From Antitrichia curtipendula (taxonomy: Eukaryota; Streptophyta; Bryopsida; Hypnales; Leucodontaceae), in NCBI GenBank assembly GCA_951230915.1, contig OX579634.1:48683570-48747569 (forward strand): a DNA stretch of 64,000 bases. The letters are read 5' to 3'. Of the stretch, positions 38,945 to 64,000 are shown one piece after another (within the stretch, counting starts at the first letter, position 1; every line of letters begins with the position of its first letter). Made by a program: the position numbers and the translations under genes. The notes under the pieces are model-generated. The model was not told the DNA's origin, did not search any database, and was given only the letters and a program-made list of their open reading frames with translations.

Positions 38945-40122
38945 TGTCGTAGCACAGGATAAGCAATTCTCATGTTATATTCCCAAAAACCACTCTAAAG
39001 CATAACAAAGTGACTCTAAAGATCGAACCCACGAGATTCTGTGAAGTATCTAGCCTTATTAACGAACTAAGCCAAGTCAGTAGTAATATCCATCTTTTCC
39101 GGTCCTCTTTCTATGGCCGGAAGTTCAAACACCCAGAAAACAAAGGACCGGATTCTTTCTATCTTCTGATTCCAACCAATCTTCCGGTTATTGAATCCAA
39201 CACAACCCCAGGACCCTATCTCTTCCGGTTCGGGTATCCGTCTAGGCCAATCCGCTCTAGACAACTCACAACCATTTCCTCTCCTATCCGGTTTGGTTTT
39301 ACCTCTGTTTAGCCATCAGAGGGTTCGCCGCTTGCTTTTGAGAGTGGTAGGCCCACCACACCTTCCGTGACTTATAGTGGCTGAAGACCCACTTTCCTAA
39401 TCTCTTCCTTCCTAGGCTAGTACGGATCCGGTTTGGCCCTTCACAGCAGTCCAGATCGCAATCCGGTCCACTGGTCACACAAAGACCCCCCGTACAATCC
39501 TCTCAATACTACAACGACCTTGATGTCATCCTATTCCGTGCGAAGCTAAGGCGGTTACAAGTGTACCCGTCCGTTCCAACGTCAACTAGAATTCTTCCGT
39601 TTACCGCTAAGATGGCGAGACCTCACAGGAGATTGGACACTCAACCGGATTTCTCACCCAGGAGTTCTAGCGCGACTAAGGAATCCCTCCCTATCCGCCT
39701 AGCCTAACAATGGCTTTCTCATCCGGAATCTCAAACTCTAGAAGCGCTGAGGCACTGAAGTTCACTCCCAACTCTATCCTATCCGCTCACATGCACTTAG
39801 AACCAAGAAAAACACCAAGGGGAGAAATCCCAACGCATCCGCTCGTGCTTTCCGAACTCCCTCACGCACAATTCTACCAAAACATGGGAGAACGTACAAC
39901 AAGAAAGTACAAAGAGAGGACACAAAGAAAAATGTAGAAGGAAAGACTTCCAGTCCTCAGCACAAGGACTGAATTATATACACTTTGAGAACTTCCAAAA
40001 ATAACAAAAGGCAAAAAGAGCCGTTAAAAGTCAACCTAAATCCGGATCCTAACTTCCGGTCCTCCTAACACTACCGGATCGGATTACTAATCTGGATCCG
40101 TTCCTATCCTTCCTAACTTATT

Positions 40123-41763
40123 CTACATCGCTATCCCGCGCCCCAACGAAGGACTCTTGGGCTCCGCCTCCAATTGCTCGAAGACTTCTTCCAAGTTCCT
40201 GTTCCGCTCTCCGGCCATCGGATCTGGCATGTCAGAACCGGGAGAGTCTTCGATGTTGATCGGCGCGGTCTGGGAAGGCTGACTCGGCTTTGACTGCGGA
40301 GTCTGGTCCCTTCCTTCCCTTGGGTCTGGCACTTCCGGAAACGATTCCGGCATGGAGATGTCCGATAGGTGGACCCTCATCGATCCGGTCAGCTTCTGTG
40401 TACACTCCTCCATCCGGTCCGCCGCTCCTCGTGCTAAGACCAAATTCTTCTCCACCTGCTCGGAGAAGTCAGTCAAGATCCGAACTATCCGGGTACCGGA
40501 TAGTTTCTTCTCCTCCAAGACCTTCTCGTCGAAGAGTCTGGCCCTGACTGCCACGCTTCCGGTCTCACCGAAAGTCGCCTTCACCGATTCCGCCACCTTC
40601 TGCGTCTCGTCCGCCATTATCCGGGTGGCGGCCATGTCTTCCTTAAAGGTGGCCACTTCCGCCTTCAACATGTCGACCTCCTCTTGAAGTCGACGGATCT
40701 CTGCTTCCCGCTTCTGGATCTCGACCGGATTGGTGATGCACTCCGCTACCTTCCCTGGCAACTTGCTATCCGGTGTTGCCTGCACCAACTCTCCGATCTG
40801 GATTAGGACGATTCTCTTCGCCTCCCAGTCCAGGCGGATGTCGACGAGGATCTTCACCAAGTTCTCGAACGGGTCGACCGGTCCCTTCTTCGAACAGCCT
40901 GCCTTCTCCCCTTCCGGTGTCTTCTCCTTTCCGGTTTTATCACCGAGTGGAGATCCTCTTCCGGTCGGAGACGTCGTCTTGTGCCGCTTGGGCTGCCTCT
41001 CCGCCTCTTCTTCTTCATCTTCTTCTTCTTCTTCGGTCTCGGATCCGGTTTCCTCTTCCTCCTCGTCCGTTTCCGATTCTCCGTATTTCAAGAGATTTTC
41101 CTGGGCCTTCCATTCCTTCTCTTCCGAGTCTAAAAGGAGCTGGTGTTGCTCATAGAGGTGGAAGAGGTAGAGACACACGGGTGTCGGCCTACTCCTTCCG
41201 ACCCTCGTCGCCAACTGGGCCACCAGATCGAACATGATCCGGGCCCAGTCCGCTTTCCGGTCACCGCTCAGGGCACCGAAAATAGTGTTGCCGAGGGTGA
41301 TTGTCACCCTTGTCGGCTTCTTCGGATGGAGGATCGGGATCAGGAACTGTAACAGTTTTCGGTGCCGGTCGTCGATGCAGTCTTCCACCGTGTATCCGTC
41401 CTTGGGGTTGACCGCTCCTCGGAACTTGCCCCGGACGTACTCGTCCTTCCGGTTTGCCATCCCGTGGCCTCCTGCCCGGAACTTATAAACCTCCCTCCAG
41501 ATCTCTTCCGTCCATTGATGTGGAACACAGCGGATCGTGTTGTCGAACTGGTTCGTCCACTTCCCCTGGATCTCCTTCACCATCCGCTCGTCCTTAAAAC
41601 CCTAGGGTTTGTCGAGCAAACCCTGGCACCCCATCCGGTTGAGATCCAACCGGAGCATCTCCATCTCCTCCTCTGTCGAAGGGAGAACCGGAACGACCTT
41701 CCGGAGTTTGACCGGAGCCGACGACGTGGATGGGCCTGGTCTGTTCCGCCTAAGCTGCGGCAT
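40123..41763 (-). pseudogene. LTR-encoded ORF (ORF0), copy A
   Basis: Sense-strand ORF inside the 3' LTR, starting at ATG 41763 (MPQLRRNRPGPSTS) downstream of the TATA box. One in-frame TAG (41604-41602) sits where copy C has Trp; after it the frame runs to 40123. Conserved blocks shared with copies C and D are a globular N-domain (LQFLIPILHPKKPTRVT, NTIFGAL, CLYLFHLY), an acidic stretch, a coiled-coil-like region (IRRLQEEVDMLKAEVATF) and a segment SGTRIVRILTDFSEQ. The tail differs from C and D (ends SPSLGRGIAM). I recognise no enzyme motif. It resembles in style the uncharacterised 'putative plant transposon protein' domains found in plant retroelements, but that is only an impression. Confidence 0.8.
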
Positions 41764-42034
41764 GGACACAGACTAGATCTAAGACAGTCCTTTCCGATTC
41801 TACCTCACACAGTCCTAGCCGCACGTCCCGTTCTCACGTTCTCTCTCCGATCTCAATCGGAATCCTGCACAGCGATCGGTACGCAACCGGAAACCTACCC
41901 TGCAACACACCTCTAACACTCGCACACTCACGCACACACGCGAACACTCACACAGCGCCGAAACACGAGGAGCGCGACAAAACACTCTCACCAAACGGAG
42001 TTTGGAAAAAGGAGTGCGACTGAGGAGGTGCTGG

Positions 42035-42044
42035 CCTTTTATAG
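42035..42044 (-). promoter_or_regulatory. TATA box of LTR-A
   Basis: CTATAAAAGG on the minus strand, about 270 bases before the ORF0 ATG and about 300 bases inside the LTR. It is consistent with transcription starting upstream of ORF0. Confidence 0.6.
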
Positions 42045-42348
42045 TCTCTCCTGACCTAAAAGCAGTCATGATGACGTTTACCGGTCCGGTCCCACCAATC
42101 CGGTCTAACCCTAATCCGGTTCTATACCCCCAATCCGGTCCACTGCTACTTCCGGACAAGGATCCGATTCCAATCCGGTTCCTGGGTGTCACCACTAGGA
42201 TTGGATTCGTTTGAACTACTCCACTGTTTCAATGTCTTTCCTAATTTTCCGTCCTCTGCTGTTTCTAGACAAAACCTAGATACTAATCGATAGTTTCCGT
42301 TCCGTTTTCTAGATAAACAACTAATAACCAAAAATTCGGACTGCGACA

Positions 42349-42364
42349 TTACCCCTTCCTCATC
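42349..42364 (-). other. Polypurine tract of the gypsy element
   Basis: GATGAGGAAGGGGTAA on the minus strand immediately before the 3' LTR start TGTCGCAG. Confidence 0.8.
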
Positions 42365-42531
42365 TGTGAGCGTCCTGGCGAGCATTACGCGGAATCCTCT
42401 GAAGAGGTAGCAGCGGTATATTTCTTCACCCTCGATCCATTCACACGAGTATCCAGCCACTGGCCATGCAAGTTCTCAAGTTGCACGGATCCGTTCAAGA
42501 ATACCTCATTGACCCGGAAAGGTCCCATCCA

Positions 42532-45500
42532 TCAAGTATGTAATTTACCTGGGAAATCCTTGTGACGGTTGTCGTAAAGGAGCACCAGACCGCCTTCTTG
42601 GATTCCGTGGTTGGCCGGAAGTTTCCGGTCGTAAACTTGCTTCCGCTTATCCTGGACTTCTAGCGTCCTCTTCAAAGCAGCATTCCGGATTTCTTCCAGG
42701 TCTTCAATTGCCAGAAGTCGAGGAAGTGTGTCCGTCCTATGTTCTGCATTTCGAGCTACAATGACACGGAATGTCTCCACTTCTAATTCCACTCCATGTA
42801 CTGCATTTTGGCCAAAGACCAAAAAATATGGCGTCTGTCCGGTTGTACTCTTTTCTGTGGTATTGTACGCATGGACCGCCGAAGGTAGTTTCCGATCCCA
42901 ATCCGTCTTGTGAGCGGAAACCATCTTGTTCAAGGTCTTACCAACAATTCCATTCGCCCTCTCCGTCAATCCGTTCGCCTTCGGATTATAGGGAGTCGTC
43001 TTCCGGTGCTTGATAAGATATTTGGTAGTAAGGTCGACGATGACATCGTTGAGGAAATGGGTCCCCCGATCACTGACCAATTCCAATGGGTGTCCAAAAC
43101 GCATGAGGATCTCCTCAAACAGAAAGGTCGCGGAAGTCTGAGCATCATTCTTTCGTGTTGCCTTGGCCTCCACCCACTTGGTCGCGTAATCCGTGGCTAG
43201 GATAATGTACCTCTTCTTTCTGGCACTGACCAGAAAGATGGGTCCAATAAAATCTATCCCCCATTTCTCGAATGGAGCTAGAGGAATGATCGGAGTGAGC
43301 GGCCAGTGGTTCCGGAAGGATGGCGCTCCTGTCCGTTGACACTGATCACAACTCCGAACAAAATTCCTAACGTCCCGATGCAAGCACGGCCACCAATATC
43401 CGGCTGATCGGATTCGGTTGACTGTACTTACAAAGGCAAAATGTCCGCCAGAACTTCCGGCATGAAGTGCCCGGATTACTTTCTTCCGGTCCGGTAGTTC
43501 CAGACATCGCCGCAAAACATCATCCGCTCCTAACTTGAAAAGGATTCCCCTAATCAAGGTATAGGGTGCCACTTTTCGCTGGAAAATTTGTTTCTCCTCT
43601 CGACTCATTGGTTCCGGATATCTCGACCATACTAAATAATCTATGATATCTTGATATTCCGAGACTAACTCATCGTTCAGGTGAAAGACTTCTACCAGGG
43701 AAGAATCCGGATTGTCTATCCGAACCGGAATCTCTTGAACTTTCGGAAATTCATCCGGAAATTCTGCGGATACATCCGCTACGGATTCTTTCCCTCTTTG
43801 CCTTGAGAGATAATCCGCATTTGAATTTGCCTTACCAGGTTTAATTATGATTTCATAGTTAAACTCTTGTAAAAGCAAAATCCATCTAGCAATCCTCCCT
43901 GACAAATCCGGTTTATTTACAAGGTATTTCAAAGAATCATGATCTGTGTGAAAAATTACCTTGTAATCGAGTAAGTAATGCCGGAACTTCTTACAGGAAT
44001 ACACCACAGCTAACGCCTCTCTCTCCGTAGTGGAGTAGTTCCGCTCTGCCAAACTCATTTGTCTGCTGGCGTAGTAAACCGGATTCTCTCGCCTATCCGT
44101 GTCGTACTGCCACAGGATTGATCCTAAACACCAACCGGATGCGTCGATGGTAACATGGAAATCCTTGTCCCAATCAGGAACGGAAAGGATCGGAGTTCTA
44201 GCAAGCTGGGTTTTGAGATCCTCAAAAGCCTGTTGCTGTCTTCCGGTCCAAAGAAAATCCGTATCCTTCTTGAGGAGTTCCGTCAAAGGAATAACCTTCT
44301 TCGCATATCCGTCTATGAACCGACGGTAGTATCCTACACATCCAAGAAATCCCCGGATTTCTCTCACGCTCGTGGGAGGTAGCAGGGATAAAACAACCCG
44401 TACTTTCTCCAAGTCCGCTTGCAATCCGGTTTGGCTTACAACGTGACCTAGGAGAATTCCGGAAAACATCCCAAAGAAACATTTCTCGGGGTGCAGCTTT
44501 AACTTGGTCTCCCGGCATTTTTGGAACGTCTTCCGTAAACACTCGAGATGACTTTTCCGGTCACTAAAAACCGCAAAGTCATCTATGAATACTTCAAGGA
44601 AATGTCGAAGAAAATCCTTGAAAATATCCATCATCAGCCTCTGAAAGGTTCCGGGTGCGTTGCATAGCCTGAACGGCATCCGGGTGAAGGCATACGTTCC
44701 CCATTCTGTTGTGAACGTAGTCTTCAGCTGATCGCACCACCGGATGAAAACTTGGTTATAACCGGAAAATCCGTCCAGGAAGCTGTAACACTCGTGTCCA
44801 GCCACATGATCCAGAATGATGTCTGTGAACGGAAGCGGAAAATAATCCTTCTTCGTGGCTGCGTTCAACTTCCGGAAATCTTGACAGACTCGGATCTTAA
44901 CCTTTCCATCCTTTCCTACTTTCTTTGGCACCACCACGATCGGAGAAACCCATTCGGAATTATTGACCGGATAGATGAATCCGGATTCCAATAACCGATC
45001 GATTTCTTCTTTAACCATCAGTGAGTACTTGGGGTTGAGTCGATACTGTCGCTGACGAACCGGATTAGATCCTTCCGTCAAATCGATATGATGCTCTCCC
45101 AAATGAGGGGGAATTCCTTCCAGATCGGATGGCTTCCAAGCAAAGACATCCAAGTACTCCTTCAGGAGTTTCACGTAAGCAGATCTTTCCTTGCCTTTCA
45201 GGAGTCTATTAAGATAGAAACTCTTGCCTGGTTCGACATTCTCCTCTTCGTAATCCGTGGGTGGAACAACCGGTTTGACCTTTTCCGGGTGAACTTCTTC
45301 CGGAATGAAGGTCAAATTTCCCCAGCCTGCCTGGGCTGTACCACTCACTGGCGTTGGAAGATTTCCGGTTCGGATCTGCTGAGCAATCCACTCTGCCGTG
45401 AGCGGAACGCTGGCTTCTCCCAAGGATCGATTTTCCATCACCGGGTTTCGGATCTCTTCCGGTTCAAGCTCTAATACAGCGTCGGAGAATCCAAAGCTTG

Positions 45501-45906
45501 TCTCAGTCTTCCGTTGGAAAGGGTTGACATAATAGCTGGAAGCAGAATCTTCCGGATCCGTCCAATCTGAAGTATAGCCTTCAGACTTGCTGGTTTCTCC
45601 CAAGTGCTTTTCCGTCACCCAAGGAATCCGGATTGAAGGTTTCCCTACTACCAGTTCCTTGGCTCCCCAATCCACTAGTACTCTAGCAGAATACAACCAC
45701 GGTCTTCCGAGTAGCATGGGAAAGGGTCTTCCTTTGGTAACTCGGATGATGATATAGTTGAGCAGATAATCCGTCCCTCCAATCCGGGTTGGCACTTGTG
45801 AAAGCCTTCCAACCGGATTTACTCGAGACTGGTCCGCCATCCGCAGAACTTGTTCCGTCGCTTCAAACGTAGTGAAGCCTAAGTCGAACGCCGTCTCCTC
45901 CAACAT
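42532..45906 (-). CDS. pol: Gypsy pol polyprotein (PR end, RT, RNase H, integrase)
   Basis: A long open frame of about 1,125 codons. It contains the protease C-terminal part (PMLLGRPWLY, about residues 90-100), the reverse transcriptase with YSFLDGFSGYNQ and FIDDFAVFS (catalytic DD, about 440), RNase H (TIDASGWCLG about 588; HTDHDSLKYL about 656), and integrase. Integrase has an HHCC finger (RALHAGSSGGHF ... SCDQCQR) and the D-D-E triad in WGIDFIGP (about 884), VSDRGTHFLND (about 948) and LTERANG (about 985). The frame begins within the protease, after a frameshift relative to the preceding frame. It stops at TGA 42534-42532, in a place where related proteins read Arg-Trp (CGA to TGA). In-frame sequence continues for about 45 codons with WMGPFRV and VNGSRVKKYT. 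Translated as a polyprotein in the parent element and cleaved by PR. Confidence 0.93.
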   Translation of the reverse strand: MLEETAFDLGFTTFEATEQVLRMADQSRVNPVGRLSQVPTRIGGTDYLLNYIIIRVTKGRPFPMLLGRPWLYSARVLVDWGAKELVVGKPSIRIPWVTEKHLGETSKSEGYTSDWTDPEDSASSYYVNPFQRKTETSFGFSDAVLELEPEEIRNPVMENRSLGEASVPLTAEWIAQQIRTGNLPTPVSGTAQAGWGNLTFIPEEVHPEKVKPVVPPTDYEEENVEPGKSFYLNRLLKGKERSAYVKLLKEYLDVFAWKPSDLEGIPPHLGEHHIDLTEGSNPVRQRQYRLNPKYSLMVKEEIDRLLESGFIYPVNNSEWVSPIVVVPKKVGKDGKVKIRVCQDFRKLNAATKKDYFPLPFTDIILDHVAGHECYSFLDGFSGYNQVFIRWCDQLKTTFTTEWGTYAFTRMPFRLCNAPGTFQRLMMDIFKDFLRHFLEVFIDDFAVFSDRKSHLECLRKTFQKCRETKLKLHPEKCFFGMFSGILLGHVVSQTGLQADLEKVRVVLSLLPPTSVREIRGFLGCVGYYRRFIDGYAKKVIPLTELLKKDTDFLWTGRQQQAFEDLKTQLARTPILSVPDWDKDFHVTIDASGWCLGSILWQYDTDRRENPVYYASRQMSLAERNYSTTEREALAVVYSCKKFRHYLLDYKVIFHTDHDSLKYLVNKPDLSGRIARWILLLQEFNYEIIIKPGKANSNADYLSRQRGKESVADVSAEFPDEFPKVQEIPVRIDNPDSSLVEVFHLNDELVSEYQDIIDYLVWSRYPEPMSREEKQIFQRKVAPYTLIRGILFKLGADDVLRRCLELPDRKKVIRALHAGSSGGHFAFVSTVNRIRSAGYWWPCLHRDVRNFVRSCDQCQRTGAPSFRNHWPLTPIIPLAPFEKWGIDFIGPIFLVSARKKRYIILATDYATKWVEAKATRKNDAQTSATFLFEEILMRFGHPLELVSDRGTHFLNDVIVDLTTKYLIKHRKTTPYNPKANGLTERANGIVGKTLNKMVSAHKTDWDRKLPSAVHAYNTTEKSTTGQTPYFLVFGQNAVHGVELEVETFRVIVARNAEHRTDTLPRLLAIEDLEEIRNAALKRTLEVQDKRKQVYDRKLPANHGIQEGGLVLLYDNRHKDFPGKLHT

Positions 45907-46832
45907 CAAATTGACTCCGGATCTCCATCAATAGGTACTTTTGGGATCGAGCATCCTTCAATCACCACTGCAACTTCTGGAGCTCCGGAATCTTCCGGTT
46001 GAGAAAAGTTAACTGCCACTGCTGGAAGTTTCACCCTCTTCTTCCGTTTCCGGGTCCAGGCCTCTCGGATCAGCTTCTGATATGCGACATTGTCATGTAG
46101 AAGTTGTCCGATCGTCACGTTGGCCTTCTGATCCCGGATGTCTTGAACAATGTTATAGTCATGTGCACCGACATCCGGTTCAATAATCACCGGGGTGTCG
46201 TTGAAACTAACCTTCTTCCGGTGTGGCAGTATATCCGGTCCAGATATATCCGTCCGAATTTCTGCACTTATATCTATTGGGATCCGGTTCCGATCCACCC
46301 CTTCCTCGACGTGGACTTTCTCCGGTTCCGCTCTTCGGTCTTCAAGAATTCGATCGGAATCACTACTCGATTCCGGTTTCCTCCTTGACTTGTTCCTCCT
46401 ACTGCGAACAGACCGTTCTGTTTGTCCTCGGGTGGAACTGCGGGTGGATACCCGATTTACCAAACTCTCAGTCTTCATTGGCAGCTCCACCTCACACCGT
46501 CACTTTTCCGGATTCTCCGTTCCGGCAGAGTGACCGTAGTTGAGCGCGGTCTACTCCCTTGGAAGAATCTGTACTTGCTTGTAAACTGGTCTGGGCTGCA
46601 CCGGCTTCGGACACTGATCCTCTTGGTGTCCGTACTCGTGGCAGTTTTGGCACGGAAGGGTCCGCGGAGCACCCTGCCCTGGTCCCCTATTAGGACAATT
46701 GGTTGCATAGTGTCCCGGTTCTCCACAACCGTAACAAATCACGCCTTGTCTATCCGGATAGCCAAAGGCTCGTATAGGCTGTTGTATCATCATCCCATGA
46801 CTAGGTCCGGGTAGAAAGTTCCGGTTCAACAT
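45906..46832 (-). pseudogene. Gag zinc knuckles and protease N-terminal part, broken
   Basis: One frame continues gag from 46832: two CCHC knuckles, CYGCGEPGHYATNC and CQNCHEYGHQEDQC (nucleic-acid binding), then a stop (about 46553), then a second stop (TGA, about 46510). A charged linker follows (46490 onward, RSRRNKSRRKPE, IDISAEIRTDISGPD) and the start of the retropepsin region ending KVPIDG. Just after this Asp-Gly the frame shifts by one base (about 45925). The protease active site is therefore split between this frame and pol. All stops fit C-to-T changes at CG or CAG codons. Confidence 0.8.
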
Positions 46833-47649
46833 GTTGGACAGGATTGGAACCGTAATTCCCTTTCCTCTCCCGTACGTGGGCTAAACTTGGTACACTTCCT
46901 CCTCTTCTTCATTCGCCATGGTGTAGTAGATCTCCTCCTCCGGATAGACATAGTGAACTTGCTTTTCTGCTGCCCGCTGGCATTCACTCGGATAGAGACC
47001 CGGTTCTCCACATCTTCCACACCACACATTCGATCGGGAAGTCGGAACAATTCGTCTTGGTTTCCGGTTCTCCACGAGATTGACCTTGATCGCCTCCAAA
47101 GACTCTTGAATATTCTTCATCATCTTCTTTGAATCCGGATCTTCTGTCTTGACCTTCACAACGGTCTTGTCCCGAGAATCTCTTGACCGATAAGAACATC
47201 GGGGAGGTGAAGCACTCCGCTCCTCACCCGAACTCGACGAACTGGAATCGGAAACTTCCGATTCCGAATTCTCGGAACTACTTTCCGATTCCGGTACCTT
47301 CTTTCGATGTCTCGACTTCCGGTTACTCTTCTTACTTTTCCCCTTCTCCCGCTTCTCGCTTCTCTTCAAAGACTTCCGGAGCGACTGCGCAGAATTCTCA
47401 TAATTGGTTGCAGCGTCCATGGCATCTCGAAGTGTCCGTGGTCGCGTTTGACAGATAAGGAATCCCATCGATTCCGGTAGTCCGGCAACGTACCATTCTA
47501 CTTGCAAACTGGGAGCAATCTCAGTCGTCAGTTTCTGGATCAGAGCTTTCATCCTCTGTCCATACTTGCGCACGGATTCGGATGACATCATCGTCAGCTT
47601 ACTCAACCGTCCCAGAGCTCGAGCTTCGCCGCCGATCTCCCGGAAAGCC
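46833..47649 (-). pseudogene. Gag, C-terminal half
   Basis: Begins in the gag core with AFREIGGEARALGRLSKLTM and TTEIAPSLQVEWYVAGLP (retrotrans_gag-type capsid). A Ser/Lys-rich linker follows and a degenerate knuckle CGRCGEPGLYPSEC in which His is replaced. An in-frame TAG (about 46883-46881) follows VYQV; the same frame then continues towards the zinc knuckles. It joins 49401-48944 in frame when the solo LTR and one TSD copy are removed. Confidence 0.85.
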
Positions 47650-48938
47650 TGTCGCACGCGTAGTTAGCGCGTAAGTATCTTTAGCACAAAAATGTGGTAA
47701 GATGACACGAGTTATCGTCCCAGGGAATTCTAGTATGTTGCTGCAAGTTTTGGGTATCCGGATCACTTCCAAAAACACCCCAAGCAATCCGTACACTCTA
47801 TTGCTATCTTCCGGAAACTAGTATTTTCCGGATTCCAATCCGGATCCGCCCTATTCCGGATTCCGGTTCCAACTCTCTCAAGTAACTGGTTTTAGATACC
47901 CATGTTTCACCCTCAGGGGGTCCACTATTGATCTTTCCGAGGGGCAGGGACTCGCCACTCTTGGTTCACACTCTCTATCCGTAACAAACAAAACAAACAC
48001 CCAAGAATTATACGGTAATAGCAAAGGGAGAATCCGTACCCTCACAATCTTCCAGATGACGTATCCGAAAAGTAGGTCACACAAGGCCCGGTTAGATCCA
48101 CCTTACTACAACGACAGATCCAGACTTTCCGGATTGTAGTGTTGACTTCTTAACTCTCAAGTGCTCCGGAGGTTGGCAGACCTTCCGATGGCTGGGATAA
48201 TTCCTCAGGCGGTTGCTTATCTCCGCACGGAATCCTCCCTGGACTTCCGGACTCGCACCCTCACCCGTAACAGGCTTCCACCGGATCACCGTTCCAGCAA
48301 TTTAAAGGCACCATGCACAACTCCTCATTCACACATCTAAAGCTCTTTCGTCACAGCATATGTATCCGTCAACCCAAAAATCCGGACTCCCTCTCACACA
48401 CTCTCACTCACAAACCAGTGTACGACTCAATCATCAACGCGATACGCAAAGAGATGATCAAATTGATCTCTAGTAAGCTTCGATTAAATGACAAGAAAGG
48501 GAATGACAGGCCAACAAGCCAGCCTGCCCTTAAAAGCAAACAAAAAGCGGCCAAAAGGCCCACACAAAACCCGGCCAACGGCCAACTACAAATCCGGCTA
48601 ACGGTCCTAATAACCGTTCCGGGAAAACCGGAAAGCCGTTGACAATCTAAAAGTCCGGAACTACGGCAATCCCTAAAATTCCGGACCTTCCTAAAATTCC
48701 GGATCTCCGACTACTTCCGGAAACTTCTAAAATTCCGGAACATTTCCGGAATCCGGATCCATCCTGTTACTGGACTTTAACGTTTATAACAATTCTAATG
48801 ATCCGGAAATTACTTATTCTAAACTTACTCTCTATCTGTTCCGTATTGTCTATTCCTATATCAGAAATGAAAATTTTTAATCTATTCTAATCCGGTTCTA
48901 GTCTATTCCACTAACATTTGAATTTTCGTACTGTGACA
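47650..48938 (-). repeat. Solo LTR-B inserted in gag, 5-bp TSD
   Basis: Ends TGTCGCACG...CTGTGACA, flanked by AAGCC on both sides (47645-47649, 48939-48943). Its first 990 bp are nearly identical to 61310-62300 (four differences noticed). It lacks the ORF0 block found in LTR-D, so it is an internally shortened LTR of 1,289 bp. Orientation is by homology with LTR-C and LTR-D. Confidence 0.92.
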
Positions 48939-49401
48939 AAGCCTGCACGAAATCCGTTCTCAACTGTTCCCAGTTATTCTGGATCCAGTCCGGAACATCC
49001 TGATACCATTTGAGAGCTTCTCCTTTCAGCAATCCTTGGAAGATTTGCCGCTGGGCTGCCTCGTTCTCTTGATTGGCGACCGCGGTCGACTCAAACTCGC
49101 AAAGCCAGTCATCCGCGTCCTGACTTCCATCACCCTTGAAACGCTTGTACCTCAACCGGCTCATATTGTCTTCTTTTTCTAACACCGGAGCTTCTTCTTC
49201 CGGTTCCGGTTCACTGCCAGGTGGAGACGTATGTTCCGATCGTGGTGTCTCGATCTCTACACCTGGTATAGATACAAAAATAAGTTGATCTTCCAGATCC
49301 GTATTATCCGGATCAGCAGGACCTGAACTAGAAGATTCTTCCGTGCGCTGAGTTCTCTTCAAACGCTCGGACCTTCTTCTATCCCTTGTTCCTCTTCTCA
49401 T
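48939..49401 (-). pseudogene. Gag, N-terminal half
   Basis: Starts MRRGTRDRRRSERLKRTQRT, followed by an acidic region and a capsid-type segment (YKRFKGDGSQDADDWLCEFE, LKGEALKWYQDVPDWIQNNW). Interrupted after LRTDFVQAL by the solo LTR. In the parent element it would be the first part of gag. Confidence 0.88.
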
Positions 49402-49513
49402 GAGTTAAGTTTCCGGTTCCGGCAATCCAACTCAGTCACAGAAAAGTAAACAAAATTTTAGAAACAAGTACTGACTTAACTACTCGTTTCCGTAACAAAG
49501 CTGATAGCTTTAG

Positions 49514-49533
49514 AATCCCCGGCAGCGGCGCCA
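49514..49533 (-). other. Primer-binding site
   Basis: TGGCGCCGCTGCCGGGGATT on the minus strand, 10 bases after the end of the 5' LTR. TGGCGCC plus GCCGGGGA is the usual tRNA 3'-end complement of plant gypsy elements of the Athila/Tat type. Confidence 0.88.
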
Positions 49534-49543
49534 GATTTTTGTA

Positions 49544-50843
49544 TGTCATAGCACAGGATAAGCAATTCCCATGTTATATTCCCAAAAACCACTCTAAAGC
49601 ATAACAAAGTGACTCTAAAGATCGAACCCACGAGATTCTGTGAAGTATCTAGCCTTATTAACGAACTAAGCCAAGTCAGTAGTAATATCCATCTTTTCCG
49701 GTCCTCTTTCTATGGCCGGAAGTTCAAACACCCAGAAAACAAAGGACCGGATTCTTTCTATCTTCTGATTCCAACCAATCTTCCGGTTATTGAATCCAAC
49801 ACAACCCCAGGACCCTATCTCTTCCGGTTCGGGTATCCGTCTAGGCCAATCCGCTCTAGACAACTCACAACCATTTCCTCTCCTATCCGGTTTGGTTTTA
49901 CCTCTGTTTAGCCATCAGAGGGTTCGCCGCTTGCTTTTGAGAGTGGTAGGCCCACCACACCTTCCGTGACTTATAGTGGCTGAAGACCCACTTTCCTAAT
50001 CTCTTCCTTCCTAGGCTAGTACGGATCCGGTTTGGCCCTTCACAGCAGTCCAGATCGCAATCCGGTCCACTGGTCACACAAAGACCCCCCGTACAATCCT
50101 CTCAATACTACAACGACCTTGATGTCATCCTATTCCGTGCGAAGCTAAGGCGGTTACAAGTGTACCCGTCCGTTCCAACGTCAACTAGAATTCTTCCGTT
50201 TACCGCTAAGATGGCGAGACCTCACAGGAGATTGGACACTCAACCGGATTTCTCACCCAGGAGTTCTAGCGCGACTAAGGAATCCCTCCCTATCCGCCTA
50301 GCCTAACAATGGCTTTCTCATCCGGAATCTCAAACTCTAGAAGCGCTGAGGCACTGAAGTTCACTCCCAACTCTATCCTATCCGCTCACATGCACTTAGA
50401 ACCAAGAAAAACACCAAGGGGAGAAATCCCAACGCATCCGCTCGTGCTTTCCGAACTCCCTCACGCACAATTCTACCAAAACATGGGAGAACGTACAACA
50501 AGAAAGTACAAAGAGAGGACACAAAGAAAAATGTAGAAGGAAAGACTTCCAGTCCTCAGCACAAGGACTGAATTATATACACTTTGAGAACTTCCAAAAA
50601 TAACAAAAGGCAAAAAGAGCCGTTAAAAGTCAACCTAAATCCGGATCCTAACTTCCGGTCCTCCTAACACTACCGGATCGGATTACTAATCTGGATCCGT
50701 TCCTATCCTTCCTAACTTATTCTACATCGCTATCCCGCGCCCCAACGAAGGACTCTTGGGCTCCGCCTCCAATTGCTCGAAGACTTCTTCCAAGTTCCTG
50801 TTCCGCTCTCCGGCCATCGGATCTGGCATGTCAGAACCGGAAG
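49544..50843 (-). repeat. 5' LTR of the gypsy element, truncated
   Basis: Near-identical to 38945-40240. Homology stops at CAGAACCGG (50840), inside the ORF0 C-terminal coding part, where LTR-C begins three bases later. TATA box and most of ORF0 are missing, so this LTR could not drive the element. Confidence 0.9.
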
Positions 50844-51140
50844 TGTCACAACACGGAAACCTAAGTTCCGTATAGATAGAGTAGAATAGATGGAATAAGT
50901 AGAAATTTTCAAACTTCTTTAGGTTAAGAAAGGGTACTAGTTGTTTTCCGGAAGAGCTTACGTTTGGAATAAGCCTTCATCCGGAAACCAGTTTCCGATC
51001 CGGCCAAGTTAGGGTTTCCGGAAATGAACCGGAACGCCGCCACCTACGGACTAGGGATCCGACCTACGAGACTAGGGGACGCGCCTCGGGAACAGAACCC
51101 TAATTCGGTTCCAATCCGGGAGCTGAAGGTGCTGTTCTGG

Positions 51141-51150
51141 CTATTTAAAG
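51141..51150 (+). promoter_or_regulatory. TATA-like box of LTR-C
   Basis: CTATTTAAAG about 130 bases before the ORF0 ATG at 51282, in the same relative place as in LTR-A. Confidence 0.6.
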
Positions 51151-51281
51151 ACCACCACCCGCCTTTCTCTCTTCATCTTTTGAGTTTTCAAACTCGTTCG
51201 CGCTTAGCTAGTTGAGAGAAAGTCTGGTGAGAGTGCGTTTACGGATAGCGAGAGGTGAGGCCAGTAGTTTCCAGGTTCCGA

Positions 51282-53237
51282 ATGGCGGAAAGTAGTAATC
51301 CGAGATCCGCGAGGGTGTCGGTCATCGCCCGGATGGTCTGTCTGGCGATACCAAATGACCCGGAGGTCCGGAAGGAGTTGGAGGAGGATCTCCGACGGAT
51401 GGGATGCGTAGGGCTGATAGAGAGATCCTGGAACTTGAAGAAGGATGAGTTGATTCAGGAACTCATTGATGGGACGGCGAATCAGTACGAGCTGACTGTG
51501 AGAGGACAGAGGAAGGGATGGACGGAAGACGTCTGGGCAGAGGTGTATCAGTTCCGGAAGTTCGGGAATGGCTTGGCTTCCAGGGCGGATAAGTTCGCAA
51601 CAGGGAAGTTCCGGAATCCATCCAACGCCAAGGAAGGCTATGCAATCGCGGACTGCATCAACGAGCGTCACCGGAGAGTATTGGAATTTATGATTCCGAT
51701 ACTCTATCCGGAAAAGCCGAGCCGGGTCACTGTAACAGTGGCCAACACGATTTTCGGAAGCCTGGAGGAGAGGGTGGTGCATTGGGGAAGAGTTATCGCG
51801 ACGGTGGTCACCAAATTGGCGGATCACGTCAGCAAGGCTAAGTACAGCCCGATCTGCCCCTACCTTTTCCACCTGTACCATCATGGAGATGTACTGACGC
51901 CGAATGAGACTCTCATCTACGAAACCGGATGCAAAATCCTCAAGTACGGATTGATGGATGAAGTCCAGGAGGATGTCCCAGTTTCGGAAGAGGAAGAGGA
52001 GGAACTCGAGGAGGACCGGATCAAGCGGAGGGGAACCAAGCGGAAATCCACGGATCCCGGTTCAAGGGGGAAGCAGCCCGAGATGAACCCGGTGGAGCCG
52101 GACCAAGTTCCGGAGGAGAGAAGAAATTCCGGAAAGGAGTTCTTCGACGTCGGGGACCAATGGATGGTATAGGCGCGACTCCTACATGTGAGGACGACCG
52201 CGTTCATCCAGGAGGTCGCGGACGAGCTGAAGGTTCCGCCCGAGGAGATTATCGATGAGATCCGACGGAGGCCGGATTCGGATACGATCCGCCTGAAGGA
52301 CGAGGAGATCCGGAATCTGGAGAAGACCCGGGATGAATTCCAAGCCCGGACCAGTTGGGCGGAAGGAGAATGTTCCTTGGCGAGACGGAATGAGAAGGAC
52401 GCCCTCGGCATGGTTCGGAGTTTGCAGTCGCTGGTCACCCAACCGGCGGATTTGGTTAACAAGGCGGCCCTTTACGACGTACAGCTGGTGACGGATGGAC
52501 AGATCACCGGATCGAAGGTGGTGATGATCCTGATGGACTTCCAAACGAGGATGGAGAGAGTCTTGAAGGAAATGCAGGCGTTGGTGGCTCGGGTGGATCC
52601 GGAACAGGCGATGAATTTCTCATCGTTTCTGGATCTGTCAACCAATCCGTACCTTCAGACTCCGGTGAAACCTGTGGGCGAGAGCTCCATCCGCTCGAAA
52701 TCAGAAGGACTTGGGTCACTTCTTCGGCCACACGAAATTCCACAGGGATGGTTGGCGCAGAGGAGTCAGATCGCCGCGAAGATTCCGGCCCAAGGTACTC
52801 CGACTCAGGCGGAAACACCAGTGGAAGCGGTAACCCCCGCACAAGTACATGGCGGAACTTCCAATTCTGTGAAACAGACACAGTCGATGGAGGATAACAA
52901 CCTCATCAGGAGGATGGGGTTGGTGGCCAATCCGGCCCGGACAAGTCCCCAGGATTTTGTGCATATGCGCGAGACGGATGCACCAGAAGGGGAAGCACCA
53001 AAGGGGAAAGAAGCTCCCATCGACCTGGACGAGATGGAGGATGTATATGAGATCGTGGATTCGAACAAGGACGACTACGAATCCGGATCCATGACGGAAA
53101 CAGATGAAGATCTTCCGCCCCCTCCCAGGAAGATTCAGACTCGCGCGGCTCTTCGGTCGACTCCTGTCAAGGCCAACCTGAAGGAAGTTACGAATCAAGG
53201 CGGAAGTAGTTCAAAGAAGACGCGCCGCGGAAAGTAG
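51282..53237 (+). pseudogene. LTR-encoded ORF0, copy C (one in-frame TAG)
   Basis: 651 sense codons from ATG (MAESSNPRSARVS) to a TAG stop, broken once by TAG at 52170-52172. This is the most complete copy. It has an N-domain with EEDLRRMGCVGLIERSW, YQFRKFGNGLASRADKF, EFMIPILYPEKPSRVTVTV, NTIFGSL and PICPYLFHLYHHG; then an acidic stretch (SEEEEEELEEDR), a basic patch (KRRGTKRKS) and a coiled-coil-like segment (IRNLEKTRDEFQARTSWAE). Next come ITGSKVVMILMDFQTRMERV, a segment NPARTSPQDFVHM shared with copy D, an acidic tail and a basic end (KKTRRGK). No catalytic motif or zinc finger seen. Probably a nuclear or RNP-associated accessory protein; function unknown. Confidence 0.85.
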
Positions 53238-54331
53238 ATAGGACGGATAGTAAGGATTTTTTTTAGTTTCCGGAACGGAATTTTCCGTAAGTGTGGGCCC
53301 GTTTCCGGATTTTTAGGGATAGTTTTCGGTGCCGGGTATCTCGGCTTCTTTTGTAGTTGGTTAGTTTGATTTTTGGTCCCCTTTTTCCCTTTTGGTTTTG
53401 GTTTTAAATGGTGGGCAGGTTTGTTGCCCATTCATTCCTCCTTATGCAATTTGAAGTTTCATTTCAATTTCCTCATTTCAAATCTGAGACACCGAGTATA
53501 CTCTCCATGTGTTTAAGTATTTTTGGAGGACTTGGATTGTGTGTGTGTGTGTGTTTTCTTGGAGAGCTGTGAGGGACTGGGAAGGAGGAATCCGGATCCC
53601 TTAATTGTTTGGAGTGAGACAGTAAGGGAGAATCTGTGGCGAAGTTAGGACGGATCTGTGGGACTTGTGCATTTAGAATCTTTAAAATACTGGAATGGTA
53701 ATCCGATTGGAATGTTGAGGGTGAGGTTCCGGAACCACTTCTGGTTCCGTGCGGAGTTAAGCAGCCGCCAAGGGGAAAACCCTTACTTACCGGAAGATCT
53801 GCCAACTGCAGTGTCGCCTACTATCTCATAGAATCTCTCTTGTGTTAAATCCGGATAGTTATGTATCTGTCGTTGTAGTGGAGAAGAGAGACCGGATTCT
53901 GTGTGACCTGCTTTCTGGATAGGCCATCCGGAAAGTCGTGAGGAGACGGAAACCTACTTTATTGCAACATTTAGATCTGTTGAGTATCTTGGGTTGTTTT
54001 GTAGGTGTTAGACTGTGTAACTAATAAGTGGTGGAGTCCCTGCCCCTTCAAAGAGTAAAAGCGGACCCCCTGAAGGTAAAACAGGGGTATTACAAACCGA
54101 AGAGTTACTGTATCCGGATTCCGGAAAAGGACGGATCCGGATTAGAAACCAAAAAGAAGTAAAGTTCCGGAAGAGGGAAAGAGAGGTTTTAGGTTCCCTT
54201 GGGGTGTTTTAGAGATAATCCGATTAAATCCAAATTCATAGCAACATAGTAGAGTCCCTGGGACGATTTTCCGTGTCATCTAACCACAATTGTGTGTTAA
54301 AGGTGCTTACACCTAGATTACGCGTATGACA

Positions 54332-57800: not shown

Positions 57801-57879
57801 TTTTTAAAAAAAATCAGATTTAAAAAAGATTGGATTTGAAGAAGATTGGATTCTTTGCTTAATTACTTTCTACAGCTGG

Positions 57880-58310
57880 TCCTTTACCTATCCCTAGACG
57901 CCTCTTCATTTTTTACTTCCTACAGCTAGCCCTTTCACCTATCCGCGGTCGCCCTTCACCCGCAATCGCCTCTTCATTTACCTGAAGTCGCCCCTTCACC
58001 TACCCGCGGTCACCCCTTTACCTGCAGTTGTCTCTTCATTTACCTTGAACGGCTTGAAGTCGCCCCTTCACCTATCCGCAGTCGCCCCTTCACCCGCGGT
58101 CGCCCAATCACCTACCCGCGGTCGCCCCTTCACCCGTTGTCGCCAATCACCTACCCGCATGCGCCCCTTCACCCGCGATCGCCCTTTCCCGACCCGCATG
58201 CGTCCCTTTACCCGCGGTCGCCCTTTCCCGACCCGCATGCATCCCTTCACCCGCAGTCGCCCTTTCCCGACCCGCATGCGCCCTAACCTGCAGTCGCCCA
58301 TGCTGACGTG
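57880..58310 (-). repeat. GC-rich edge repeats, inverted relative to the left edge
   Basis: Tandem CGCGGTCGCCCCTTCACC-type subrepeats with ACCCGCATGCGCCC variants, the reverse complement of the GGGGCGACCGC words at 54332-54660. An open frame crosses it but is a by-product of the repeat. Confidence 0.8.
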
Positions 58311-58535
58311 GTTCTGTCTTTCCACGTCACTGTGGACAACCAGACACGTAGGACAAATCCATTTACCATGGGGTAAAAAACTTCAAAACCCTAAATTTTT
58401 TTGCGACGCATTTGTAACCCTAAACCCTATATTCGACACATGTCATATACGACACGCAACGCGACACGTCTAATACGTCACCAAAACCCGAAAATCCGTC
58501 TGACAAGACAACCCTAATCCAGACCTCCTGAAGTA

Positions 58536-60820
58536 TTGCCCTGTAACGAAGGACTAGTTCAAGATTCACAACGGAAAAGAAAATTGAATGGGAACTGGAG
58601 TAATGCTCAACTTAGAAGTGCTGTAGCAGATGTGGACGAAGGAATGCCGATGAGAACTGCTGCAAGACTTAACAATATTCCTGCAAGTAGTTTAAGCGGC
58701 CATGTTTATGGGACAACTGCTCAAAGAAGACGGGGAAAAGAAGAAGTTCTGACGAAAAACGAAGAAGAGCAGCTTGTAGATTATCTTATGAAAATGCAGA
58801 ACCTCGGTTTTCCTTTGAACATAGGACAATTACGGGAGAAGGTACAAGTTCTGACTCAAACAAGAGTAACCCCTTTCACTGATGGCATGCTTGGAGCCGG
58901 ATGGATAAAATGTTTTAAGAGGAGACACCCAGAGTTGACTATCAGGAGAGCTCAAGCTTTGGAACAAAAACGCGCTCATAATTTATGTCCTGAAAGTGTA
59001 GCTAGTTTTTACAATAATCTTGAGAAGATGTATGACAGTCATAAATATAAACCACATCGCATATGGAATATAGACGAAAGCGGAGCTCAGGCTGGCAGGG
59101 ATGGAGGCGAGTACGTCATAGCTAAACGCGGATCACGAAATGTGTACATAGTAACGCCGGACCACAGAGAGTGGTTGTCTGTTGTGTCTTGCATTAATGC
59201 AAAAGGGGACACACTACTGAATTTTTACATTTTTAAAGGGAAAAGACGGACAAGGAATTTTTTAGTGAAAACAGGGGAGAAAGAGGCTGCCTTGGCAATG
59301 CAGAAGAAAGCTTGGATGATGCACGTTTTATTTTGGAAGTGGCTGCTACATTTCTTGAAGAATGTTTCAGAAAGGTATGAAATAACCCCATCTACTAGAC
59401 ATTTATTCATACTAGATGGGCATACTTCTCACGTGACACTAGAAGTTATCAAATTAGCTATGTCAAAGGGTGTAGACATGTTAACTTTACCATCTCATAC
59501 GTCACACGCTCTTCAGCCGTTGGACGTTTCGTGTTTCAAGCCGTTTAAATCAGCATTCCGAGCTTACAGGGACAAGTGGATGCTAAATCACGTCGGAAAG
59601 AAGCCTATTAAGGAAGACCTTGCACAATGGGTTTCGCATGGACTTCAAAGAGCTCTAACTGTGTCTAATATCACTAAGGGATTTCACTGTACGAGGATAT
59701 TCCTTTCAATTCCAATGTCATGCAGTCAAAGATAGGGCCAAGCAAAGCGTACATCCAATCTAAAGGAAAAAGTTTGGCTACGGAAGAGATAGGCAAAGAA
59801 GATGAATGCCCATACGAACTGGAAGCATGGGAAATACAAGAAATATTCGACGAAGTGCCTAGCAACCTACCGAATTGCCAGCAGTACTACGTTGAAGTGG
59901 ACAACGAAGATATGCAGTCTGACAAGGATGGGAAAATAAGTGGGAGTTCAAGCAATGAGGATGAGTTGGAGGATCAAACCGAAGTGGGAGACAGCAGCCA
60001 GTTCACGAAACTTTTAGAACTCCCTCACGTGGAGTGGCCAACTAAATCGTCCAAACGCAAAGCGCTGCAGATCGACTACGAGAAGTCGATCATGCTGACA
60101 ACTAAAGATCATCTGTCCACACTTGAAGACGTCGTCGCGAAGCGGGAAGCTGCTGCAGAGGAGCGACAACAGAAGAAATTAGAAAGAGAGGCTACAAAGG
60201 AGATCAGAGCGCAAGAACGAAAAGAAAAACTTGAAGCCAAGGAAGAGCGGCTGGCCTTATCTAGATCTAAGAAGAAGCACAATGAATACTGGAGCGCTAA
60301 AAACGTCAAAGCAATGGGAGAGAAACTACATGCTGCGATTCGGGAAAATGCCCCCATTACCGGATATAGAGCACCGTATTGTGGCATAATACCATTGGTC
60401 TGCAAGGAGAACCAAAAAATTGCCACAGAAAAGAGACGAAAAAAGCAACAAGGAGAAGATGTGAGCGATTTACCAGCTCTACAGCAGGTGTGGCCGCAGC
60501 AGATGAACTTTGCGATGATGCTTTCAATGGGAGCAGGATACTTCGGTGGCATGTCCACTCGTCCTCTGCAATATTCGGCAACCTTCCCTGCTCGTCCTCC
60601 ACAACCCGCGTCAGCCTTCATCACTCCTCCACAGCATGCGGCAACCTTCCCCACTCCTCCACAATATTCAGCAGGCTTCTTCCAAGTTCCTGCTCAACAG
60701 CCGTCGACAAGCTTCTTCCAAGCTGCGGCTCCACAGTCGTCAACAGGCTTCTTCCAAGCTCCGCCCACAACACCTGCAACATTCAACACACCTGGCTTCA
60801 ACCCACAAGGGAAGATCTAG
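58536..60820 (+). pseudogene. Pogo/jerky-type DDE transposase, split by a -1 frameshift
   Basis: The N-terminus has a Psq-type helix-turn-helix (WSNAQLRSAVADVDEGMP, AARLNNIPASSLSGHV, about residues 20-60). A CENP-B-type second HTH follows (EEQLVDYLMKMQNLGF; GWIKCFKRRHPELTIR, about 75-140). The DDE_1 nuclease has aspartates in WNIDESG (about 180), FILDGHTSH (about 293) and LQPLDVSCFKPFK (about 330). The frame shifts at about 59690; the second frame resumes DIPFNSNVMQSKIGPSKAY and runs through acidic and lysine-rich coiled-coil regions to a tail of Phe/Pro/Gln repeats (SAGFFQVPAQQPS, STSFFQAAAPQSS, STGFFQAPPTTP). There is no in-frame ATG before about residue 38, so an upstream exon or start is missing. 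Related host genes exist, but the intact triad and HTH pair indicate a transposase. Confidence 0.85.
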
Positions 60821-61309
60821 TATACTTGACCGAAAAATGACATACTTTTGTGAACTCCTCTGTCAATTCGATGTGGTATAATTGACAGTATAATTGTCAG
60901 TTTCATCTGATATTCGATCTGCTGAAAATTTATTTTTTGACAGCATTCCTTGTTTTTTTGAAATACTTTTGTATCTTTTGAATCTTACAGTGACAGTTCT
61001 ATTAGATCTTCCAAATGACAAAGTTTTTCCTTAAGCCTTTAGGGATGATGTATATTTCTGCAGTGAACATCAGCAGCAAGTGCTGAACCTGATGAAACTC
61101 CTCGTTTTGCTGACCTTGGAGATGCTGTACACATCATCAATGGTAATCAAAATAGGGTCACAGTTTGGTCACAGGCCAGTAGTTGCTGAATATAAGCCTG
61201 CCATTAGCCACCACATATATTATTGATCACAGAATCAAATCAAGCCCCCTTTCTAATCACAACTGAATCAAACAAATAATTAATATTTTGAAAGATACAT
61301 AAACAATTC
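60821..61309 (+). other. 3' flank of the transposase with a possible lone exon
   Basis: After TATTTCTGCAG (about 61052-61063) the sequence reads SAASAEPDETPRFADLGD and AVHIIN to about 61142, followed by GGTAATC (donor-like). It may be an exon of an unidentified host gene. The rest (AT-rich, palindrome around AATTGACAGTATAATTGTCAG) shows nothing else. Confidence 0.3.
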
Positions 61310-64000
61310 TGTCGCACGCGTAGTTAGCGCGTAAGTATCTTTAGCACAAAAATGTAGTAAGATGACACGAGTTATCGTCCCAGGGAATTCTAGTATGTTG
61401 CTGCAAGTTTTGGGTATCCGGATCACTTCCAAAAACACCCCAAGCAATCCGTACACTCTATTGCTATCTTCCGGAAACTAGTATTTTCCGGATTCCAATC
61501 CGGATCCGCCCTATTCCGGATTCCGGTTCCAACTCTCTCAAGTAACTGGTTTTAGATACCCATGTTTCACCCTCAGGGGGTCCACTATTGATCTTTCCGA
61601 GGGGCAGGGACTCGCCACTCTTGGTTCACACTCTCTATCCGTAACAAACAAAACAAACACCCAAGAATTATACGGTAATAGCAAAGGGAGAATCCGTACC
61701 CTCACAATCTTCCAGATGACGTATCCGAAAAGTAGGTCACACAAGGCCCGGTTAGATCCACCTTACTACAACGACAGATCCAGACTTTCCGGATTGTAGT
61801 GTTGACTTCTTAACTCTCAAGTGCTCCGGAGGTTGGCAGACCTTCCGATGGCTGGGATAATTCCTCAGGCGGTTACTTATCTCCGCACGGAATCCTCCCT
61901 GGACTTCCGGACTCGCACCCTCACCCGTAACAGGCTTCCACCGGATCACCGTTCCAGCAATTTAAAGGCACCATGCACAACTCCTCATTCACACATCTAA
62001 AGCTCTTTCGTCACAGCATATGTATCCGTCAACCCAAGAATCCGGACTCCCTCTCACACACTCTCACTCACAAACCAGTGTACGACTCAATCATCAACGC
62101 GATACGCAAAGAGATGATCAAATTGATCTCTAGTAAGCTTCGATTAAATGACAAGAAAGGGAATGACAGGCCAACAAGCCAGCCTGCCCTTAAAAGCAAA
62201 CAAAAAGCGGCCAAAAGGCCCACACAAAACCCGGCCAACGGCCAACTACAAATCCGGCTAACGGTCCTAATAACCGTTCCGGCAAAACCGGAAAGCCGTT
62301 TGACAGCCTAAAAGTCCGGAACTAGGGGCCCACAGTCCGGGTTACCCGTTTCCGGAAATAACTAATAAGTCAAAATCCTAACTAAAAAGACACCCACCCG
62401 CACTAGTCATTTGCGGGGCTTCTTTGTCGATGGTCTGGCCCTAAGATTCGCTGGAGTGGACTTCCGGGCAGTTACCTTTGCTGGAGTCCTCTTCGTTGCC
62501 GACCGAGTCCGGATCTGAGGCGGATCAGAATCCGTCCCATCCGATTGGGAGTGAGACTCCGCAGATTCTTCTTCCGTCTCATCGATCTCCAGCGGCTCCT
62601 CGATCCTCGTGTGTCGCTGTCGTGTCGTCTTTGTCTCCGTCAAATTAATGACGGTGTTGCCCGGATTCGCTGGTGGTGGAGTGTTCTGCATATGCATAAA
62701 CCTGTCCGGATCGGTCCGAGCAGGATTCCGGACACTTGCTGCTGCTATGGCCTCAGCTTCCGTCTCCATCAGCTGGAGAGGCGGAAACAGGTTTACCGCC
62801 GCCTGTCTTCCGGTTGTCCCCTCCTGGACGGTGGTCTGCGTGCCTGCTTCTTTCGGCGTTTTAACCTCCGGATAAGTGACCACGTGAGTCGGGATTTCCG
62901 GATTCCTCTTTCGCGTTGAAGTTCCGGCTCCATGAGTTTCTTGGAACTCTCCTCCCGGAAGATCAGCGAACATTGCTTGGTCAAGCAGGTTCGGGTCGAG
63001 GCTTCCAATCAACTGTCGCATCTCCTTCAGCACTCCCTCCATCCGGGCCTCGAAATCCGTCAGGATGAGTACGACCTTCGTTCCGGTAATGTGGCCTTGG
63101 GCCACCATCTGTGAGTTCCAGAGTTGGGCCCTCGAGATGGTGCTGGCCGGAAGGTCGATCAGTTCTCCCAGCTTCCGTACTAGAGCCATCGCTTCCGTGG
63201 ACTTCCGGTTCGCGATGTGCATCTCCCGTTCCGACCACTGGTGCTGGCTCCGGAACTGATCCCGTTCCTCCTGAAGACTCCGGATCTGATCGTACAGAAC
63301 CTTGACGTCTTCCGGATTCGGTCTTCGTGCGATGGCGGCCAAGATTTCTCTCTCGTCCTTCACTCCTAACGAATGGCAAACGTCTTGGAGTACTGCTGCC
63401 ATCCGGTCGTTCACCGTCCTCATCGTTCGCAGCCAATGTATGGCGTTCTCGACTGGATCCAACTCCTCGTGCGGGCTTTCCGGCTGGACGGAACCTTCCG
63501 CCACTTGTTTCCCTCGCGCTGTCCGGTCGGTGGACTTCCGCCTACTGGTTCCGGCCTTCTCCGGAGTGGTCTGTGTTTCCTCCGGAACGTCCTCCTCCTC
63601 GGATTCCGGCTCCTCCGGCTGCGGTTCCGGTCTCAGCCCGTACTTGAGGAGATTTTCCCCTTTCTTGTACATAAGTTGCTTCGGCTCGCTCAGGGTTTCC
63701 ATCCGGTGGTACAAGTGGAACAAGTACGGGCTAATGTAACTAGTCTTCCGTCCTGAAATCCCATTCGCTAACTTATCCACAATTGAGTGAATAAGTCCGC
63801 CCCAATTTACGGGTCTTGGAGGCGGGTTAACCCTGTTTCCTTAAGCCCCCAAAATGGTGCAGGCCACCGTGGTGGTCACCCGGCTAGGCTTTTCCGGATA
63901 CAGGATGGGGATCAGGAACTCTAAGAGTTGCTGATCCCGGGCGTACACGCAATCCGTCGCTGCAAACCCCTCTTTTGGGTCGGCGGAGTTCCGGAATCTT
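61310..64000 (-). repeat. LTR-D, long LTR with ORF0, running off the right edge
   Basis: Left boundary TGTCGCACGCGTAG. 61310-62300 is nearly identical to LTR-B, followed by the ORF0 block. No PBS is present on its left, so it is a 3' LTR of an element to the right or a solo LTR. Confidence 0.85.
62407..64000 (-). pseudogene. LTR-encoded ORF0, copy D (5' partial, one stop)
   Basis: Sense frame entering from the right edge. LEFLIPILYPEKPSRVT matches copies A and C. TAA at 63843-63841 breaks the frame after TVACTILGA, then it continues with ISPYLFHLYHRMETLSEPKQ, an acidic stretch, a coiled-coil-like segment (IRSLQEERDQFRSQHQWSE), ITGTKVVLILTDFEARMEGV, NPARTDPDRFMHM and a basic end (PSTKKPRK) with stop at 62409-62407. 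Strong similarity to copy C in the middle and near the end supports a conserved protein rather than chance coding. Confidence 0.85.

Follow-up and report, generated by a model that had tools for sequence, protein, structure and literature searches.

We found that Ty3/gypsy-type retrotransposons of the moss Antitrichia curtipendula carry a complete gene, which we call ORF0, inside their long terminal repeats (LTRs). ORF0 lies within the LTR, is under selection, and was seen in the 5' as well as the 3' LTR of a full-length element. The starting point was a 64,000-nucleotide stretch of contig OX579634.1 (assembly GCA_951230915.1, forward-strand positions 48,683,570 to 48,747,569), referred to below as the window, which contains one gag-pol element (element A, on the minus strand) surrounded by LTRs of related families. 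A first-pass annotation of the window had reported a homologous sense-strand open reading frame (ORF) in three LTRs, A, C and D, with its conserved parts in the same order, and this was confirmed: the true LTRs are about 3.4-3.5 kb long, each has a single sense ORF, and all three ORF0 copies are free of frameshifts but broken by a single in-frame stop (Table 1).

Genome-wide, three ORF0 families (A-, C- and D-type) were found, with many uninterrupted copies among the best-scoring ones. We scored the best of the first-look candidates (87 of 2382 for A-type, 115 of 1846 for C-type and 89 of 2149 for D-type), and the commonest long open frames are 548 aa (many copies), 662 aa and 649 aa, respectively. 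D-type ORF0 is stop-free across the matched stretch in 42 of the 89 scored matches, and 28 of 52 D-type copies (array and pair duplicates counted) have an uninterrupted ORF0, a share that is not a genome-wide estimate because these copies are the best protein matches. One full-length D-family element has the target-site duplication (TSD) CTTAC on both sides, a primer-binding site (PBS) after the 5' LTR and a polypurine tract (PPT) before the 3' LTR; its two LTRs differ at 11 of 3423 positions and ORF0 is open in both, as expected from the earlier proposal that the gene is copied into both LTRs. In a second D-family LTR pair (47 differences out of 3423), ORF0 is interrupted in both LTRs. The assignment to Ty3/gypsy-type elements is based on the paired LTRs, TSD, PBS and PPT of the full-length D-family element, and on the PBS, PPT and reverse transcriptase (RT)-RNase H-integrase order of element A.

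Purifying selection on ORF0 was observed in two families, D-type and C-type. For D-type we used 44 copies, after removing 8 of the 52 as partial or as array/pair duplicates. The ratio of nonsynonymous to synonymous variants relative to the neutral expectation is 0.71 for singletons, 0.65 for variants found in 2-4 copies and 0.21 for variants with a minor-allele count of at least 5 (26 synonymous, 10 nonsynonymous and 1 stop), while in each class the control frames +1 and +2 of the identical stretch give at least 0.97. For mock frames placed in the D-type 3' non-coding part, the values range from 0.77 to 1.27 in the rarer classes and from 0.57 to 2.22 in the common class, which is noisy because it has 11 sites. 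For C-type, we compared the 3' half of the window copy with four relatives (chosen as stop-free in the matched stretch, 81-88% identical) and obtained dN/dS values of 0.16, 0.21, 0.19 and 0.27. Across the full set of ten pairs the values run from 0.16 to 0.56, and eight shifted-frame values from 0.97 to 1.45. The D-type coding part showed no deletions, but as these copies were chosen as full-length matches we do not use this as evidence. The first-pass annotation had named the lack of a selection signature as an outcome that would overturn it, and the outcome was the opposite. The gene is thus kept in transmitted lineages and decays once inserted. The stops in all three window copies and the existence of an LTR type lacking ORF0 are what one would expect of a chance or passenger ORF; this explanation is contradicted by the selection results and by the conservation of the N-terminal domain in 31 proteins from outside the window, and we consider it hardly credible.

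It had also been suggested that solo LTRs keep ORF0. A further 40 D-type LTRs were examined, and 31 of them proved to be solo LTRs bounded by exact 5-bp TSDs; five others bring the number of TSD-flanked solo LTRs in the D family to 36. ORF0 is uninterrupted in 18 of the 36. The suggestion thus holds for these copies, but all 36 were picked by ORF0 similarity. As a working accessory gene located entirely within the LTR, ORF0 would be copied with its promoter into both ends at each cycle, and a solo LTR could stay a self-contained ORF0 gene. Overall, the earlier reading is supported in part: the LTR sense ORF, the TATA-like box, the presence in both LTRs, the solo LTRs and selection speak for it. 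We correct it in that each window copy has a stop and that hardly any of ORF0 is left in the 5' LTR of element A. We add to it a fourth window LTR without ORF0 (D2), and the observations that LTR-D is a solo LTR and that LTR-C is without a matching TSD.

Repeat pairs had suggested another layout, in which the true LTRs are only 1.0-1.3 kb long and ORF0 is a post-pol ORF. It was ruled out by the PPT and TGT start at 42348-42361, and also by the genome element with 3423-bp LTRs and ORF0 in both.

Table 1. Features of the ORF0-bearing LTRs and of element A in the window.
Feature	Position	Strand	Details
LTR-A (3' LTR of element A)	38945..42348	-	3404 bp; TGTCGC start adjoining PPT, ACGACA end
ORF0-A	40123..41763	-	ATG at LTR nt 586; single in-frame stop 41602-41604
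TATA box TATAAAAG upstream of ORF0-A	42036..42043	-	LTR nt 306
PPT GAGGAAGGGGTAA	42349..42361	-	element A, directly before LTR-A TGTCGC
pol	42532..45927	-	RT, RNase H, integrase; Pfam RVT_1, RT_RNaseH, Integrase_H2C2, rve, in this order
gag	46881..49404	-	two pieces (48898-49404 and 46881-47663), split by solo LTR D2
Solo LTR D2, inside element A gag	47650..48938	-	1289 bp; TSD GGCTT; without ORF0
PBS TGGCGCCGCTGCCGGGGA	49516..49533	-	follows 5' LTR end at 49544
5' LTR remnant of element A	49544..50843	-	truncated at LTR-C; nearly all of ORF0 gone
LTR-C	50844..54331	+	3488 bp; TGTCAC...ATGACA termini
TATA-like box TATTTAAAG upstream of ORF0-C	51142..51150	+	LTR nt 299
ORF0-C	51282..53237	+	single in-frame stop 52170-52172
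LTR-D (solo LTR)	61310..64000, continuing beyond window end	-	TSD GAATT; GCGACA end at 61310
ORF0-D	62407..64000, past window end	-	single in-frame stop 63841-63843

The TATA boxes that had been noted upstream of ORF0 in A and C were found again, and the D family also has a TATA-like box, at about LTR nt 277 (for window copy D, beyond the window end). In all three families the first ATG downstream of the box is that of ORF0; the chance of such an ATG-free leader (250 nt in A), estimated by shuffling, is 0.009 for A, 0.083 for C and 0.082 for D. All but one of 52 D copies have the box, and 49 of these 51 have the ORF0 ATG as the first ATG more than 30 nt past it. ORF0 may be the first ORF of the genomic RNA, as had been proposed; this RNA may instead start after ORF0, where there is a second TATA-like stretch, clearest in A (TATATA at LTR nt 2369) and weaker in C and D (TTTTAA). 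In each of the three families a splice-donor-like string, GGTGAG, stands in the leader between the box and the ORF0 start (it reads GGTGAGA in 51 of the 52 copies of D), and splicing past ORF0 to gag is conceivable. It is also possible, though we somewhat doubt it, that ORF0 sits in U3 and is expressed as a separate mRNA from its own promoter, with the genomic RNA starting downstream, similar to sag of mouse mammary tumor virus (MMTV), which is located in U3. This placement is compatible with any function of ORF0, and would agree with the second TATA-like stretch and with the gag frame opening about 1.2 kb past the ORF0 stop, a distance hard for scanning; against it, the box that is conserved in position (in the D copies, and in A and C too) is the upstream one, and the downstream stretches differ in sequence between A and C/D.

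Database searches gave the 31 relatives that share the conserved N-terminal domain. The predicted architecture consists of a folded N-domain, an acidic stretch or linker, a motif resembling a nuclear localization signal (NLS), a long coiled coil and charged segments; the NLS-like motif is present in 30 of 35 ORF0 sequences. We looked for a transmembrane segment in the 35 sequences and found none (top 19-residue hydropathy 1.31), which argues against an envelope-like ORF. Known plant extra-ORF (eORF) domains (PMD, Transposase_28 and Athila ORF-1) were likewise not among the Pfam matches listed, including those for 28 family members. Neither sequence nor fold searches against PDB listed anything closely similar; the N-domain gave one structural alignment to VANC21, a fold match that was not reproduced.

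The elements are rich in a short motif, CCGGA. Judged against dinucleotide shuffles, LTRs A, C and D contain 50, 62 and 82 occurrences (11-13 in shuffles), and three internal stretches contain 84, 76 and 81 (12-16 in shuffles). The excess is not a regional feature, because window positions 1-38000 (34% G+C) show none (11 occurrences versus 15 expected from their own dinucleotides). The preceding base is family-specific: the ACCGGA to TCCGGA ratio of A is 32:5, as against 8:22 for C and 10:25 for D (Fisher p <1e-6 for A vs C and A vs D). Such a pattern would look like a duplex-DNA recognition code common to one protein family, with the specificity shifted between its members.

Two other functions are the main rivals to the anti-silencing role proposed below. 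In the first, ORF0 would transactivate the promoter of the LTR that encodes it via the CCGGA sites, with the acidic stretch activating, as in the foamy virus protein Tas/Bel1. The N-domain, acidic linker, NLS-like motif and coiled coil would suit such a protein and the LTR is dense in CCGGA, but internal and coding DNA carries the motif at almost the same density, which is beyond what an activator needs, and the PDB searches gave it no support; we regard it as unlikely. In the second, which we rate as distinctly improbable, ORF0 would work on RNA or particles, in packaging, assembly or nuclear import of the preintegration complex. The long coiled coil and charged segments would fit this role. 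CCGGA occurs on both strands, and its sense excess in LTRs A (33:17, p 0.033) and D (51:31, p 0.035) would fit as well; the strand split is, however, even in D-family internal DNA (38:38 and 44:37), TCCGGA is palindromic as suits a duplex-DNA site, and most of the sequences have the NLS-like motif.

Signs of silencing were seen in the inserted copies. In the non-coding part of D-type LTRs, C-to-T changes affect 54% of CG (89/166), 57% of CHG (83/146) and 25% of CHH sites (100/403), as compared to transitions at 5% of A/T sites (43/800). CG/CHG-type decay is expected of plant-type methylated copies, and the inserted copies look silenced. The CpG observed/expected ratio of the elements is 0.97-0.99, versus 0.49 for window positions 1-38000 and 0.79 for 54700-61300. 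The transmitted lineage thus appears to be without lasting CpG loss, which is compatible with a means of evading silencing without proving one; the retained CpG could also be explained by recent activity alone.

Among the functions considered earlier, a nuclear, DNA-directed and silencing-related role is favored by the evidence and an envelope is disfavored, and packaging could still be the role. Our leading, though tentative, proposal is that ORF0 is a nuclear protein that binds DNA at the CCGGA sites of the element encoding it and counters silencing. The product would be an oligomeric nuclear protein whose folded N-domain binds a short CCGGA-centered motif that the element has accumulated along its full length; it would coat its own element copies and thereby counter host silencing, and the motif flanks and the protein would diverge in parallel between families. 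We infer expression from the upstream promoter, nuclear location, DNA binding, CCGGA recognition and the anti-silencing effect. A wider version may also be considered, with more doubt: an LTR retrotransposon lineage with sequence-specific anti-silencing, in which an LTR-encoded nuclear protein reads, and co-evolves with, a CCGGA-centered code in its own coding and non-coding DNA, and solo LTRs act as stand-alone genes supplying the protein in trans.

LTR-encoded genes exist in retroviruses: sag of MMTV, an animal retrovirus, lies in U3 and encodes an immune superantigen. Like sag and other retroviral genes overlapping the LTR, ORF0 is a complete ORF in the LTR and is hence copied into both ends; unlike sag, it belongs to a plant-type Ty3/gypsy element and its protein looks nuclear. 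The proposed activity would be closest to that of the VANC anti-silencing proteins, which are encoded by the VANDAL DNA transposons of Arabidopsis. As described in PMC5735166 and PMC10398659, these are also element-encoded extra proteins with an element-specific repeated short motif that varies between related families; VANC21 binds YAGTATTAY and VANC6 another motif, and each motif has accumulated in the element encoding the protein (PMC5735166), as CCGGA has here. In these descriptions VANC has DUF1985 and DUF287 and its motif is in non-coding tandem repeats, whereas ORF0 is located in the LTR and its motif is in coding DNA too; neither DUF1985 nor DUF287 was among the Pfam matches listed for the element A region proteins, ORF0 and 28 members. 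The eORFs of Ogre/Tat/Athila (OTA) elements, as characterized in PMC6317226, are similar in lying beside gag-pol, in being highly divergent and of unclear function, and in the very long LTRs of some lineages, but ORF0 is entirely within the LTR. Rice Retrosat2 has LTRs of more than 3.2 kb and an extra ORF, also named ORF0, ahead of gag-pol; compared by its description (PMC3485330), that ORF is placed upstream of ORF1, with no mention of its being inside the LTR, and is reported in grasses only. Group A CRM centromeric retrotransposons, according to the account in PMC3059260, share coding sequence within a plant LTR; there the end of the polyprotein enters the 3' LTR, while ORF0 is complete, forms an ORF of its own preceded by a TATA-like box, and is in both LTRs. 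A separate, complete and selected gene inside a plant LTR was not found among the open-access literature matches listed.

As for the window itself, the final 1304 bp of LTR-A and the 5' LTR remnant (49544-50847) share 99.7% identity. Because the 5' LTR of element A is cut at LTR-C, the window is without a complete two-LTR element bearing ORF0. The Pfam scan of pol did not list a separate additional RNase H domain (a feature of Tat elements), and Retrotrans_gag matches in gag are weak, under the curated cut-off. The PBS, which we take to be of the tRNA-Asp type, is also found after the 5' LTR of D-family elements. No PBS was seen 3' of LTR-C, and its flanks do not match as a TSD (GGAAG vs AAGAC). 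Tandem repeats start at the LTR-C end (region 54331-57626), with 110-bp units at 54331-54660 and diverged repeats at 55265-57626; a rearrangement at LTR-C is suggested, because it abuts the 5' LTR remnant on one side and the repeats on the other. The 5' end of LTR-D is about 0.7-0.9 kb outside the window, giving a total length of about 3.42 kb.

The earlier annotation had also named intact relatives without ORF0 as an outcome that would overturn it. An LTR type lacking it does exist (D2), but its elements were not seen whole. The 3' 1.0 kb of D2 is 99% identical to LTR-D, and its 5' part is different, with a TGTCAC start; this part has 40 scored genome matches (of 114 candidates), with the window copy the only one viewed whole. 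D2 LTRs are possibly a non-autonomous family borrowing the machinery of ORF0 elements.

Of the 89 D-type ORF0 matches scored, 39 are on a single contig, C5 (9% of the assembly), which is possibly heterochromatin-rich or a sex chromosome. Six of these 39 matches are arrayed in tandem with a spacing of 9350 bp (24.245-24.294 Mb); two LTRs of the D-family array of this spacing have 1 difference in 3423 positions. Elsewhere in the window, there are two long plus-strand ORFs at 58518-60820, the first with DDE_1 and HTH_Tnp_Tc5 Pfam domains (Tc5/pogo-type DNA transposon) and the second without a match in the Pfam scan, 39-bp tandem repeats at 58111-58305, and, just outside element A, minus-strand frames (37832-38884) that are presumably DEAD-box RNA helicase-like.

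Plant LTRs are usually seen as regulatory and non-coding, and solo LTRs as dead remnants. Since LTR families here carry a complete selected gene, solo LTRs can be live genes, and the rules of LTR annotation need revision. If the anti-silencing role is true, ORF0 would be a retrotransposon counterpart of VANC, and one could envisage a reagent for sequence-specific demethylation whose target motif is predictable.

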